Source: Richelia sp. SL_2_1
GTDB lineage: Bacteria; Cyanobacteriota; Cyanobacteriia; Cyanobacteriales; Nostocaceae
Length of the DNA stretch: 64,000 bases
Direction of reading: 5' to 3'
Assembly (NCBI GenBank): GCA_012033205.1
Contig: JAAUSO010000011.1
Coordinates: 1-64,000 of the forward strand
The notes beneath the pieces are model-generated. The model made no database searches. It was not told the DNA's origin and saw nothing but the letters and a program-made list of their open reading frames with translations. Each line of letters starts with the position of its first letter. The stretch's first letter is position 1. The position numbers were made by a program, and so were the translations under genes. Below, piece after piece: positions 43,678 through 49,458 of this stretch.

Positions 43678-43830
43678 TTGACCTGGGACAGTTAGGAGTT
43701 AGTACCACCGGAATTGTAGAGACGGGGCGTATTGCTACGTCTGTATCGGAGTTAGGAGCTAGGAGTTTGCAGTTAGAATTTATTACTGATAACTGTTTAC
43801 TGATAACTGATAACTGATAACTGATTACTC
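43663..43830. repeat. Heptanucleotide repeats (ggagtta, tgataac) and GACCTGGGACAG unit
   Basis: aggagttaggagttagttgacctgggacag; tactgataactgataactgataactgatta. Confidence 0.9.
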
Positions 43831-44952
43831 CCCATTGCTTGTTGCTGCTTTTAATAAAGTAAACCAAAATCGAGAACCTGCATTTTCGCGAGGGGTAAAA
43901 CCAATTTGCCCTCCCCAACGTTCTACTGTAATTTTGCAAAAATAAAGTCCTAGTCCAGATTTACCAGATTTTTTTTTACCTTGAGTAAACTTTTGAAATA
44001 AAGTATCGGCAATTTCTTCTGGAACACCACTTCCTTGATCTTCTACACTGACAAGAATATAATCTTCTTGTTGTTGTAAATTGATCGTAACTGTGGTGTT
44101 TGGGGGGCTATGACGAAAAGCATTTTCGATCAAGTTTGCTAAAATCCGATCTAAACGCGATTTATCACCAACTATTCGCCAATCTGCGGTTAAATCTATA
44201 TCGGAGGATAGTTGTAAACGCATTTGATTGAGTGTAAAAGTTGGCGTGAATGATTCGATGGCATCAAATACAGATACTAAAACATCTGGTGCGGTTTCAA
44301 TATCATCTGTAAAGCTTTCTAAAGATTGAATTTCTTGAGAAAATGCGTTTAATATTTCTCGAATCAGCATTTCTTGTTTAATAGTTTGCTTTCTACCGAT
44401 TTCTAAACGTTCTCTACCTTTTTCAGTTAAATTTTCTAATTCTAGTAGAGCCAAACAACAATTAATACCACTTAACTGTCCGGCAACATCGTGTATAATG
44501 CAGTGAATTAAAACTTCTTTTTTCTGATTTTCTTTAAGAATATGTTGATAATTGAGCTTATTTTCTCTAGCTTGCTGAATTAGACTTTGTTTCTCGGTGT
44601 AAGCATCACTCATTCTTTCGACGAGTAATATTTTTTTGTGATTTGCCACAAGAGCGGAAGCTTCAAAATGAAATTCAGTTCCAGATATGTCTAAATCCGT
44701 CCATATTCCAGATTTTAAAAGTTTTTCATCGTTTCTTTGCCAATATTCTTCCGCATCAATCAGAAAGTTCTCTAAAAAAGGAAACTCTTGTTCAGGAATT
44801 AAAATTTCCATTCCTGGTTTAAAAATCTGACGACAAAATCGTCTCACCCATTTAGGGATATTTCCAGAAATTTTAAATTTACCAACATCAAGTCTTTCTA
44901 GAACTAAGATATCTAAAGCAGCAAAAATTTCCGCTGTTATTGATTCACTCAT
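43825..44952 (-). CDS. Sensor histidine kinase
   Basis: H-box VLIHCIIHDVAGQLSGI, N-box RILANLIENAFRHSPPNT, G1 VEDQGSGVPEE, G2 GKSGLGLYFCKITVERWGG. Confidence 0.95.
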   Translation of the reverse strand: MSESITAEIFAALDILVLERLDVGKFKISGNIPKWVRRFCRQIFKPGMEILIPEQEFPFLENFLIDAEEYWQRNDEKLLKSGIWTDLDISGTEFHFEASALVANHKKILLVERMSDAYTEKQSLIQQARENKLNYQHILKENQKKEVLIHCIIHDVAGQLSGINCCLALLELENLTEKGRERLEIGRKQTIKQEMLIREILNAFSQEIQSLESFTDDIETAPDVLVSVFDAIESFTPTFTLNQMRLQLSSDIDLTADWRIVGDKSRLDRILANLIENAFRHSPPNTTVTINLQQQEDYILVSVEDQGSGVPEEIADTLFQKFTQGKKKSGKSGLGLYFCKITVERWGGQIGFTPRENAGSRFWFTLLKAATSNGE

Positions 44953-45073
44953 AATTAAACAGTCGTAGAATTAATATTTTATATCAAGTCCTAATGATTA
45001 GTTATTGTTCCCTGTTAACTGATAACTGATAACTGATAACTGATATTAGATATTTCGTACCGAAATAATATTA

Positions 45074-45454
45074 CTATGATTTGCGCTGCATTAAGTGAGA
45101 AGAATTGACTTGTTGTTGGACTTTAAAGATTTGCATTTCATCCCAAGTTGCATCCAATAGTAAAATCCAATCTCCATCTGTCTCAGGGAACAAATGCACA
45201 TCCGCACAAATTCCATGTTCGATTTTAATACAGGGTAAAAACAGTGGAAAATCATCAAGTGGTAAAAGCCCTTCCAGAAAGAAAATTTGTTGACAAGCGT
45301 CAATTCCCTGTTGTAAATCGACTATTCCATATTCAGTTAATTTACCACCCCAATTAGATAGACATCCATTTTTACCTACAAAAATATATGCTAAAGAACG
45401 ACTTTCTCTCAGAAAATTAACAAGATAATTACTAACAGGGAAAGGGATATCCAT
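45074..45454 (-). CDS. Small PAS-like/sensor protein (126 aa)
   Basis: SLAYIFVGKNGCLSNWGGKLTEYGI...LFPETDGDWILLLDATWDEMQIFKVQQQVN; located between GTPase and histidine kinase. Confidence 0.68.
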   Translation of the reverse strand: MDIPFPVSNYLVNFLRESRSLAYIFVGKNGCLSNWGGKLTEYGIVDLQQGIDACQQIFFLEGLLPLDDFPLFLPCIKIEHGICADVHLFPETDGDWILLLDATWDEMQIFKVQQQVNSSHLMQRKS

Positions 45455-45458
45455 GCAT

Positions 45459-45956
45459 TCATCCTTTCATTATTTTAGAAGCAAGTATATTAAAAATTTC
45501 TTCTACATTTAATCCAGTTTTTGCACTAGTTTTAATCGTAATCCATCCCTTGTTTTCCAGATTTTCAATATTTGTAGAATCTAACTCCCATTCATCTTGT
45601 AAATCCCACTTATTCAACACTAAAATAAAAGGTACTTTACCCAAATTATCTTCAACTCGTTGTTGTAATTCAACAGCTTTTTCCAAAGTAGTTTTTCGTG
45701 TTCCATCCACTACTAACAAATAACCAGATGAACCTCTTAAATAAGAAGTTCTTAATTTTTGAAATTCATCTTCTCCATACAAATCCCACAAAATCAAACT
45801 TAATTCTTGTTCTTTTACTTGTACTGTTTTTTTATCAATTTTTACCCCTACAGTGGTTTGATATTTTTCTGAAAATATGCTGTAAACGAATTTAGCTACT
45901 AAGCTTGTTTTACCAGTAGCAAATGCACCTACCATACAGATTTTTTTCTGGAGCAT
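45459..45956 (-). CDS. Ras/Rab-like small GTPase
   Basis: G1 GAFATGKTSLV, G2 YQTTVGVKI, G3 LWDLYGEDEF, G4 LNKWD, G5 TSAKTG. Confidence 0.95.
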   Translation of the reverse strand: MLQKKICMVGAFATGKTSLVAKFVYSIFSEKYQTTVGVKIDKKTVQVKEQELSLILWDLYGEDEFQKLRTSYLRGSSGYLLVVDGTRKTTLEKAVELQQRVEDNLGKVPFILVLNKWDLQDEWELDSTNIENLENKGWITIKTSAKTGLNVEEIFNILASKIMKG

Positions 45957-45972
45957 TAGCTATTTGACTCCT

Positions 45973-47808
45973 CTATTTATATTTAGTAATGTCGTCTATG
46001 ATAACCTTGAAGGAGACTCTACGATTAAGTTTTTTTTCTTCTTCGGTTGATTCAGGACGTAAAAGATTTTCAGAGTCTAAAGATTTTGTCCGAAAATAAT
46101 TTTTGTTAATACCTTGGGATGTAAGATAAGCTAAAATCTTCTCGGCACGATTTTGAGAAAGTTTGATATTTGCTTGTTTATCTCCTAAACTATTTGCATA
46201 TCCCTCAATTTCGATGAAAATATCTTTTTCTAAAGATTTAGCAGCATCAATCAAATTTTGTAATTTTGGTAATAATTTTAAGAGTTTTTCGGTTTCACCG
46301 GGTAAAAATTGAGTTTTATCATTTTCAAAAAGCAAGATGATTTCTTCAATTTCTTGTTTGTAAGTATTAAGTTGTTCAATATCTAAATTAGTCAGATTTT
46401 CATCTTTATATTGATTAATTCCCAAAATAGATAGGGATGATTGTTGTTCTCTAGCGGATAAAATCCATTCACGAGGGGCAAAACCTGTAGCGTTCAAAAC
46501 ACCATTTTCATCAAGAGTGAAAGTAACAGTTTTCGGTTTTTGTAGAAAATTTTCGGCTCTTTTGATAATAATTTCTTGTTCTAAAGATATAAAAGGTTTC
46601 CATTGATAAACAACTGCTTTTTCATTGATATTCAATTGTTTCATTAACTGATTCGGTTCAACTGCTAAGGGATCGCGCATCCCTGTTACCAAATATTTCC
46701 CATTTATTATATCCGTTTTAGTCACCAAAATTCCCGGTTGAGCTTGCAAAGTTTTGAGATAATTATTCCAACGTTGATTATCTCTAATGACATTAAATCC
46801 CCAAATACCTAATACCGTCGTCAGTATTGCCACAGAAACCCATGCATAAGTATATTTAGTGTTAGTAGGATTTCGATAATGAGATTCTAGACAATTTTCT
46901 AAATACGGCTTACTAGCTACAAACGGTTGAGTATCACCAGAAAAATTTTCAATTTCTCGACTTAATTTTAAATGTATTTTTTCTAAAACATTCTTAAAAA
47001 CAATTCTTAACTCTTCCGGTGCATTTCCGCGAATAATACCCGCTAAAACTGCTGTAGGCCCTTCTTCAATCCAAATTGTCAATTCCCCAAATTCTAAAGT
47101 ATGCAGCCCCTCATGCTTTCGTACTTCAAAAGAGTCTTTGACAAAATCTTGAATCGCTGTCAACATTGCCGAAACCAAAGATGGGTCTTGAGCCGCTACC
47201 TTGGATGCTACTATATGCTGTAAAATCAATCCGCTGTGCCTGTGAATCAGAAATACCTGTTCCACACGGTAAATCAGCGTCCTTAACAGTACAACTTCCG
47301 CAAAGGATTTCCCCGTTTGTCTCGCTTCTATTCTCCACTTCAAACTTTGCGGTGAAGCACTGTATTCTAAAGCCCGATTAAACGACTGTAGCATTTCATC
47401 CAAAGTCGTGGCGATCGCCTTTCTTGTCGCAGGACCAATAATCGGGAAAATCGCTTGGGAAAGTATGTTAATATCTTTTTTGACAGAAGACTCAATGGCT
47501 TGCTCAACAGTAGGAATCATCGCTTCAGACAATTGATCATCTTGCATTGTCCGCAAAATAACCGCTTCGGGAAGCATCTTACTGATATCTTCAGCATCAA
47601 CTTGAGGATTATCCAATTTTTGATAAAACTTATCAAGTTTTGGTTGCTCTATTCCTAAAAGTAAACTTCGCAATTCAGTCAATTCATTCAATTCATTTAA
47701 TTCATCTAATTCATTGAATTGATGATTTTCTTTAATATTATTATTGTGATTATTCTGATGATTTTTTAAAGGTTCTTCTGCTAATCTATTGCCGTTATAA
47801 TTATTCAT
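45973..47808 (-). CDS. OmpA-like membrane protein with large cytoplasmic N-terminal region
   Basis: TM AWVSVAILTTVLGIWGFNVI; C-term IEIEGYANSLGDKQANIKLSQNRAEKILAYLTSQGI...NRRVSFKV (OmpA domain); N-part FLIHRHSGLILQHI...LTIWIEEGPTAVLAGIIRG, possibly roadblock/longin-like. Confidence 0.88.
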   Translation of the reverse strand: MNNYNGNRLAEEPLKNHQNNHNNNIKENHQFNELDELNELNELTELRSLLLGIEQPKLDKFYQKLDNPQVDAEDISKMLPEAVILRTMQDDQLSEAMIPTVEQAIESSVKKDINILSQAIFPIIGPATRKAIATTLDEMLQSFNRALEYSASPQSLKWRIEARQTGKSFAEVVLLRTLIYRVEQVFLIHRHSGLILQHIVASKVAAQDPSLVSAMLTAIQDFVKDSFEVRKHEGLHTLEFGELTIWIEEGPTAVLAGIIRGNAPEELRIVFKNVLEKIHLKLSREIENFSGDTQPFVASKPYLENCLESHYRNPTNTKYTYAWVSVAILTTVLGIWGFNVIRDNQRWNNYLKTLQAQPGILVTKTDIINGKYLVTGMRDPLAVEPNQLMKQLNINEKAVVYQWKPFISLEQEIIIKRAENFLQKPKTVTFTLDENGVLNATGFAPREWILSAREQQSSLSILGINQYKDENLTNLDIEQLNTYKQEIEEIILLFENDKTQFLPGETEKLLKLLPKLQNLIDAAKSLEKDIFIEIEGYANSLGDKQANIKLSQNRAEKILAYLTSQGINKNYFRTKSLDSENLLRPESTEEEKKLNRRVSFKVIIDDITKYK

Positions 47809-47917
47809 CAGTATTCTTTAATTCTCTAATAATTAAACTTAAATAAATTCAATCAAAAAGTCATTCATTTATTTAACAGTTATCAATTAACCGTGATAAC
47901 TGTTAACTGATAACTGA

Positions 47918-48523
47918 TTATTGAGAATTCAACCGCAAAGCTAATTCCGAAAATAAAGCAGCTAATTGAGAACGATCTGTTTTTTCACTACGAAGTTCAT
48001 AGGTTTCTCGCTCTAGTAAACCGACAAGTTCTTCATATTTTTGGCGAATATCATCATGTAAGTTTTGAGATTGATTAAAAATTTGCTGACGCAATTCTCG
48101 CTGAATTTTATTTGCTTCCTCATCAATTTCAGCCATCTTTTTCTCTAAAGATTCAGCAACTTTCTTCTGCTCTTCAGTAATAACTTTCAATGCTTCATCA
48201 CGCTTGACTTGTTCATTTTTCGTTTTAGCACCCAAAGCATCTGTTTCTTCTCTAATATAAGTTTCTAAGGAATCTAATCTTTTTCTCGTCTCATCTCTTA
48301 AATCCGTACATTCTTTAACTAAACGCTCTTCCAAACGAGAAAACTTCTTATCCAATTCTCGCATTTGAGAGCCAACTAAAATATCTCTAACTTTATGCAA
48401 GCTATTATTTTCATGAATCTCAGGATTACTATATCCTACAGGCTTACTAGTATCTCTAGTTGATACTATTTGTCCTGTTTCTCGCGAAATATTATTGTTG
48501 TGTTCTTCCGACGAATTCATCAT
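47918..48523 (-). CDS. Coiled-coil protein
   Basis: Heptad-rich KVRDILVGSQMRELDKKFSRLEERLVKECTDLRDETRKRLDSLETYIREE. Confidence 0.8.
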   Translation of the reverse strand: MMNSSEEHNNNISRETGQIVSTRDTSKPVGYSNPEIHENNSLHKVRDILVGSQMRELDKKFSRLEERLVKECTDLRDETRKRLDSLETYIREETDALGAKTKNEQVKRDEALKVITEEQKKVAESLEKKMAEIDEEANKIQRELRQQIFNQSQNLHDDIRQKYEELVGLLERETYELRSEKTDRSQLAALFSELALRLNSQ

Positions 48524-49165: not shown

Positions 49166-49458
49166 ATGAAAGATTTTAGTCAGTTACTTATTGATAAAAA
49201 AGAAATAATTGTAGAAAACTGGCTGAAAAAAGTTCATGAGGACAATCAGATTGAAAGTCTAGCTATAGTAAATCATCTTGAATATGTTTTGCTAGCTTTA
49301 GCAACGGTTCTTTGCAAAAATCAACATTTTTGGATTTTGAGTCGGTAGTAGAAGCGAGTTTAAATCATGGAATTCTCCGTGCCGAGCAAGGTTATGATGC
49401 TTCAGAAATAGGTAGAAAATATCATTTGTTTCGTCAAGAGATATTTTCGATTTTATAA
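49166..49458 (+). pseudogene. RsbRD/sensor-kinase N-terminal-like remnant, frameshifted near 49330 and truncated
   Basis: MKDFSQLLIDKKEIIVENWLKKVHED ... then in another frame DFESVVEASLNHGILRAEQGYDASEIGRKYHLFRQEIFSIL*. Confidence 0.65.

Follow-up and report, generated by a model that had tools for sequence, protein, structure and literature searches.

A predicted longin/roadblock-fold domain in the putative wall-anchored partner of a Group 1 Rup GTPase, encoded in a conserved operon of Richelia sp. SL_2_1

The window analysed here, a stretch of 64,000 nucleotides of the cyanobacterium Richelia sp. SL_2_1 (positions 1 to 64,000 of contig JAAUSO010000011.1, in the 7.55 Mb assembly GCA_012033205.1), carries on its minus strand a five-gene operon, running from 48523 to 43825, which is a Group 1 Rup system. 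Operons of this kind have been known since 2014, when the Rup family was defined computationally by Wuichet and Sogaard-Andersen (PMC4316618); every feature of the present one fits, and the kind is already described, not CHARACTERISED. What is new is a testable fold assignment for the conserved unknown domain of these systems. Specifically, the cytoplasmic N-terminal domain (N-domain) of the OmpA protein encoded in the operon very probably has the longin/roadblock fold, as judged from structure prediction. It also seems rather likely that the operon as a whole encodes a wall-anchored platform of longin/roadblock fold by which a Rab-like GTPase is regulated, the output of the GTPase being a soluble histidine kinase.

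In the 2014 account, the genes surrounding a Group 1 rup gene comprise one for a coiled-coil protein, another for a conserved unknown domain that is often followed by a transmembrane (TM) helix and an OmpA domain, and an output gene, typically of the GGDEF/EAL or kinase kind, whose N-terminus has an invariant Gln (PMC4316618). Group 1 GTPases were described as very similar to eukaryotic Rab, Ran, Ras and Rho; the Gln of the G3 motif is absent in Rup and was proposed to be supplied in trans, no Rup was found coupled to MglB, and no member had been characterised experimentally (PMC4316618). The window operon has the same set, which the 2014 account also gives for cyanobacteria: it combines a GTPase of 165 amino acids (below the 240 of the Group 1 definition) that has WDLYGED in place of a G3 motif with Gln, an adjoining coiled-coil gene, an adjoining gene with the domain-TM-OmpA arrangement, and Gln-bearing output proteins (Q113/Q114 of a 126-amino-acid protein and Q126 of the kinase, candidate equivalents of the residue in the 2014 figure). 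The initial annotation of this DNA had allowed that a homologous operon might already be characterised; the architecture has indeed been published, on computational grounds, whereas a literature search in which subscription journals were thinly covered returned no experimental study of Rup, nothing after the 2014 paper and no named regulator.

The OmpA protein (611 amino acids; 45973..47808, minus strand, as are all operon features given here) consists of a helical N-terminal part, the predicted longin/roadblock-fold domain, one TM helix, a periplasmic part and a peptidoglycan-binding OmpA domain (residues 494-596, 46021..46329; Pfam PF00691, E 1.5e-12). The TM helix (residues ~323-341, 46786..46842), placed by hydropathy between the N-domain and the OmpA domain, has a similar peak in most homologues. 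In an AlphaFold2 model of residues 41-320, built with 40 homologues, the longin region has a core in the order E-E-H-E-E-E-H (E, strand; H, helix) over residues ~181-281 (46966..47268). A Foldseek search of the PDB with this model gave 29 matches at E <= 1e-3, all with probability 1.00 and every one of the longin/roadblock type, with a TM-score by target of up to 0.67. Mon1-Ccz1 is the best match, and TRAPP, MglB, Asgard roadblock proteins, AP small subunits, Fuzzy and Ragulator are among the others; most are known GTPase regulators or binders. The main difference between the two subtypes is an N-terminal helix in roadblock domains as opposed to an extra C-terminal helix in longin domains (PMC10933270), and as the model has helices on both sides, the subtype is left undecided. 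A roadblock/longin-type fold had been proposed for this part of the protein from the letters alone, and the model and the Foldseek matches support it as a prediction of moderate confidence; the single TM helix between this part and the OmpA domain and the tie to the GTPase across genomes (see below) likewise agree with the initial reading.

The N-domain is, moreover, associated with Rup. A neighbourhood survey covered 80 loci fetched by similarity to the OmpA protein, from Nostocales, Acaryochloris, Desulfobacterota, Mesorhizobium, Rhizobium, Planctomycetota, Acidobacteriota, SAR324 and others, the closest relatives being Plectonema cf. radiosum and a Rivularia bin (94% and 93% identity in the OmpA protein). 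A GTPase homologue is present in 79 of the 80 (the remaining locus ends at a contig end), as is a coiled-coil homologue in 79. All five genes occur in the same order in most of the Nostocales loci, and the coiled-coil protein, OmpA protein and GTPase occur together in cyanobacteria, Desulfobacterota, rhizobia, Acidobacteriota, Planctomycetota and others. The genes flanking the operon recur in only four Rivularia/Calothrix-type relatives, and the five genes can therefore be regarded as a unit; its recurrence, one of the checks suggested by the initial annotation, is far above chance. Among 339 cyanobacterial genomes, two independent searches found the N-domain in 40, Rup in 40 and both in 39 (hypergeometric p about 7e-49, a value that ignores relatedness; the matches span about 25 genera), and of the 46 Rup genes, 41 have an N-domain gene no more than 6 kb away. 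Six N-domain genes do not adjoin rup; proteins of this sort were seen at locus L120 (6417-10028) and in genomes G189, G330, G038 and G197.

Two classes of operon can be distinguished, namely type A, to which the window operon belongs and in which the OmpA protein has ~600 amino acids, and type B, which has a 700-1270-amino-acid protein with BON and OmpA domains, a GTPase with GDFGVGKT, and PAS-kinases. The helix AIQDFVKDSF of the N-domain, including Gln220, is nearly invariant in type A, and Gln220 is Arg in type B. The window protein is the only N-domain protein found in the host genome. The same genome has a second rup operon, of type B, on contig C40 (L085, 3389-7372), with a coiled-coil protein, a Rup that is 42% identical and has WDIEGSS as G3, and a hybrid kinase; it has no longin/OmpA gene.

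The GTPase itself (165 amino acids, 45459..45956; Pfam Ras, E 4.4e-33) is a Group 1 Rup member of the Ras superfamily. Its G1 motif corresponds to GxFxxGKT, with Phe at the Ras-12 position in 98% of homologues, and G3 is WDxxGED, with Glu replacing Gln61 in nearly all of about 80 homologues. Switch 1 reads YxTTVG (YQTTVG in the window GTPase), with the Tyr kept in 100% and the position of the Lys taken by Gln, Leu or His (YQ/YL/YH) in most. When its profile was compared with the PDB, Rab23 was the best match at 132 bits, followed by a Thorarchaeota Rab at 110, which is a similarity ranking and not a tree. The protein had been read as a canonical Ras/Rab-like GTPase; the family and the Ras/Rab-like character stand, but with Gln61 absent and Phe at position 12 it is not canonical, and GTP hydrolysis should therefore need help in trans.

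On the output side, the 126-amino-acid protein (45074..45454) is a stand-alone PAS module: its AlphaFold2 model has a mean predicted local distance difference test score (pLDDT) of 89.6 and a PAS fold, and its top Foldseek matches are the PAS domains of FlrB, bacteriophytochromes and Aer2 (best E 1.3e-3, probability 1.00), which bears out the earlier description as PAS-like. In other phyla, output proteins of Rup systems have homologous N-domains, which its profile detects at E about 1e-37 to 1e-6; the proteins concerned carry class III cyclases or hybrid and other kinases. In the Mesorhizobium/Rhizobium loci (L058, L060, L062 and others), for instance, the PAS module is N-terminal on the output, which in L058 is a guanylate/adenylate cyclase; the OmpA protein of these loci has about 750-1000 amino acids. 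Fusions of PAS to a degenerate class III cyclase were found in two Acaryochloris-type bins, a Pseudanabaenaceae bin and L040 (hhalign probability 98%, E 1.9e-13), at L040 3531-4448, L042 8305-9480, L050 6065-7105 and L061 8327-9271; the metal-binding Asp residues of the cyclase domain are absent by inspection, and it has no Pfam match. These fusions are intermediate in form between outputs with an active cyclase and the stand-alone PAS of Nostocales, and in Fischerella relatives the 126-amino-acid gene is absent while Rup is kept. The four states (active cyclase, degenerate cyclase, stand-alone, absent) may represent an evolutionary order.

The soluble histidine kinase (375 amino acids, 43825..44952) has a candidate phospho-acceptor His154 and a HATPase domain (residues 262-367; Pfam HATPase_c, E 5.8e-26), preceded by an N-domain of its own type, which is unlike the PAS module and resembles the N-domains of HD-type and kinase outputs elsewhere. 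As homology between the 126-amino-acid PAS protein and the kinase N-domain was not detected, they are treated as two output-domain types. A Gln is conserved in three such types: Gln113-Gln114 in the exit helix of the PAS module (45113..45118; kept in 67/69 and 68/69), Gln126 of the kinase (40/40) and a Gln at a like place in type B outputs (6/6). Judged from these alignments, the 2014 observation is widened to more output-domain types, though catalysis is not thereby proven.

Taken together, these features would be accommodated by the following scheme. The OmpA protein would cross the inner membrane once and hold peptidoglycan from the periplasm, exposing its longin/roadblock-fold domain to the cytoplasm, where this domain, probably dimeric and together with the coiled-coil protein, would bind the Rup GTPase. 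The platform would set the nucleotide state of Rup in response to the condition of the envelope, the signal thus presumably running from envelope to kinase. The loaded GTPase would then be read by PAS-type output domains, perhaps through the conserved Gln of the exit helix; here the readers would be the free 126-amino-acid PAS protein and the soluble histidine kinase, which may pass the signal to an unlinked response regulator. As regards the polarity, motility or envelope-stress roles suggested initially, the evidence points neither way and they are not supported.

A number of points weigh against this reading and against the fold on which it is built. The mean pLDDT of the longin region is only 65; core strands and the C-terminal helix are mostly at about 75-88, and there is one weak stretch. 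Profile comparison (hhalign) of the N-domain with 35 roadblock sequences was not significant, with narrow and wide alignments and against shuffles and decoys; a PDB profile search with it gave chance-level matches only, and the 611-amino-acid protein has no Pfam match to PF03259, the roadblock family expected of an MglA/MglB pair. When 291 cyanobacterial genomes were scanned in six frames with the Pfam MON1/FUZ longin model (Fuz_longin_1), one match was returned (E 1.3e-4), inside the N-domain of the type B paralogue L120, which counts in favour of the fold. At 24.4 bits, however, it lies below the curated cut-off of 26.1 that a tri-longin assignment would call for; it is a single sequence that does not adjoin rup, and no such match came up in 22 further Rup-bearing genomes. 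Longin folds are found, too, in SNAREs and adaptor subunits, whose roles do not concern GTPases, no response regulator adjoins the kinase, and Gln at the position in question is not rare in ordinary PAS signalling helices. Because the model and Foldseek agree while sequence profiles do not match, the fold is claimed and family membership, for which the sequence support is weak, is not. A further reading, in which the Rup system is a GTPase-longin pair of bacteria and its longin domain shares ancestry as well as a fold with those of the eukaryotic guanine nucleotide exchange factors (GEFs) for Rabs, is rather doubtful. The L120 protein also carries a long extension at its N-terminus, in which partial matches to the helical part of the N-domain recur.

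Other roles can be assigned to the same parts. The longin-like domain might have nothing to do with GTPase regulation and only dimerise or scaffold the wall-anchored protein, with the GTPase acting on other targets; its use in SNAREs and adaptor subunits and the six N-domain genes away from rup would suit this, but it is improbable when 39 of 40 N-domain genomes also have Rup, mostly side by side, and the fold matches are mostly known GTPase regulators or binders. If the domain does act on Rup, it could be an MglB-like GTPase-activating protein (GAP) that binds GTP-loaded Rup and switches it off, envelope signals relieving or imposing this. The roadblocks MglB and CvnB/MfpD are GAPs, help in trans is expected for this GTPase, and the nearly invariant helix with Gln220 could belong to such a function; yet roadblock profiles do not match, Gln220 is Arg in type B proteins, and what MglB positions are catalytic residues that MglA itself supplies and Rup lacks, so that such a GAP seems unlikely. 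It is equally hard to favour a RabGEF of the tri-longin type (Mon1-Ccz1 or Fuzzy-Inturned). Here Mon1-Ccz1 is the best fold match, the MON1/FUZ longin model gave the only Pfam cross-match, and Rab23, the best PDB sequence match of the GTPase, is the substrate of Fuzzy-Inturned (PMC6864590), but these GEFs need a substrate whose switch 1 contains Tyr-Lys/Arg (PMC12383261), and of this pair Rup keeps the Tyr alone. The catalytic mechanism of tri-longin GEFs in identical form is thus unlikely, while the predicted domain may act as a platform, as a GAP or as another kind of GEF.

The help in trans could also come from the output side, as proposed in 2014, if output PAS domains were the GAPs and their conserved Gln completed the Rup active site, the 126-amino-acid protein then being a free GAP. 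The absence of the G3 Gln in nearly all Rup proteins and the conserved Gln of three output-domain types speak for this. Against it stand the similar Gln of ordinary PAS exit helices, the Fischerella relatives that have Rup without the 126-amino-acid gene, and one kinase-type output domain elsewhere (L054) with Arg instead; it is a possibility to be entertained with some doubt. The wall-anchored regulatory platform described above is the reading retained.

With respect to the operon itself, the five open reading frames have exactly the order and sizes given in the initial annotation, with the correction that the strand is minus, and are separated by 109, 16, 4 and 121 bp in order of transcription. 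A scan for promoters and terminators gave signals no better than in shuffles, and transcription as one unit is therefore proposed from spacing and conservation. The first gene encodes the coiled-coil protein (201 amino acids, 47918..48523); like the 126-amino-acid protein it has no Pfam family above cut-off. It has a short N-terminal motif in common with the OmpA protein (VRDILVGSQ... and LRSLLLGIE...; score 20.4 versus a shuffled maximum of 12.6, probability 60%), which might serve the two proteins as a shared docking site. Just upstream of the operon, on the plus strand, an RsbRD_N (PF14361) domain is divided over two reading frames (49166-49458), apparently the remnant of a broken gene. As a defence system the operon was considered and rejected, the domain matches being generic (e.g. 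the OmpA part of ZorB).

The predicted domain provides a concrete, testable candidate regulator for Rup in its conserved partner, and with it a route by which the cell wall could be coupled to a GTPase switch. The series of PAS states suggests one switch that has been re-plugged to different outputs. Rup resembles the GTPases that run membrane traffic in human cells, and the finding bears on the origin of the GTPase-longin partnership. Should the longin homology hold, bacteria too would have a Rab-longin partnership, put to use there as a switch that senses the envelope, and the missing Rup regulator would be the domain to which the 2014 paper gave no assignment.

Several known systems invite comparison. 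Like the tri-longin RabGEFs, the operon pairs a Rab-type GTPase (by sequence match) with a longin partner (by fold match), but it has one longin-like domain per chain, fused to TM-OmpA, and a GTPase without the catalytic switch-1 Lys. The MglA-MglB polarity switch of Myxococcus and Thermus likewise joins a Ras-like GTPase to a partner of longin/roadblock fold, a likeness that for the present protein is predicted with moderate confidence. The MglA/MglB framing adopted at first is not supported, however, as the GTPase belongs to the Rup family, never coupled to MglB in the 2014 paper, and the partner has no significant sequence match to roadblock profiles. The only PF03259 roadblock protein of the host genome lies on another contig (G000:C345:15055-15324; L083, L086), where it adjoins the gene of a globin-like sensor; the 6.8 kb inspected there showed no GTPase gene. 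The actinobacterial conservon (CvnA-D; Mfp in mycobacteria) is also an operon of a small GTPase, a roadblock-fold partner, a kinase and an accessory protein. There the GTPase is of the MglA family, the MglB-type roadblock CvnB (whose homologue MfpD is a GAP) is separate, and the kinase-like protein is a membrane sensor, whereas here the longin/roadblock-like part belongs to a wall-anchored protein and the kinase is soluble; the operon lacks a separate roadblock gene such as CvnB, which in a conservon lies with CvnC next to an MglA-family GTPase, and its GTPase motifs fit Rup. The closest counterpart is thus the Group 1 set of 2014, to whose account are added the predicted longin/roadblock fold of the domain unassigned there, outputs with PAS modules, class III cyclases and HD-type domains, and the stand-alone PAS gene of Nostocales.

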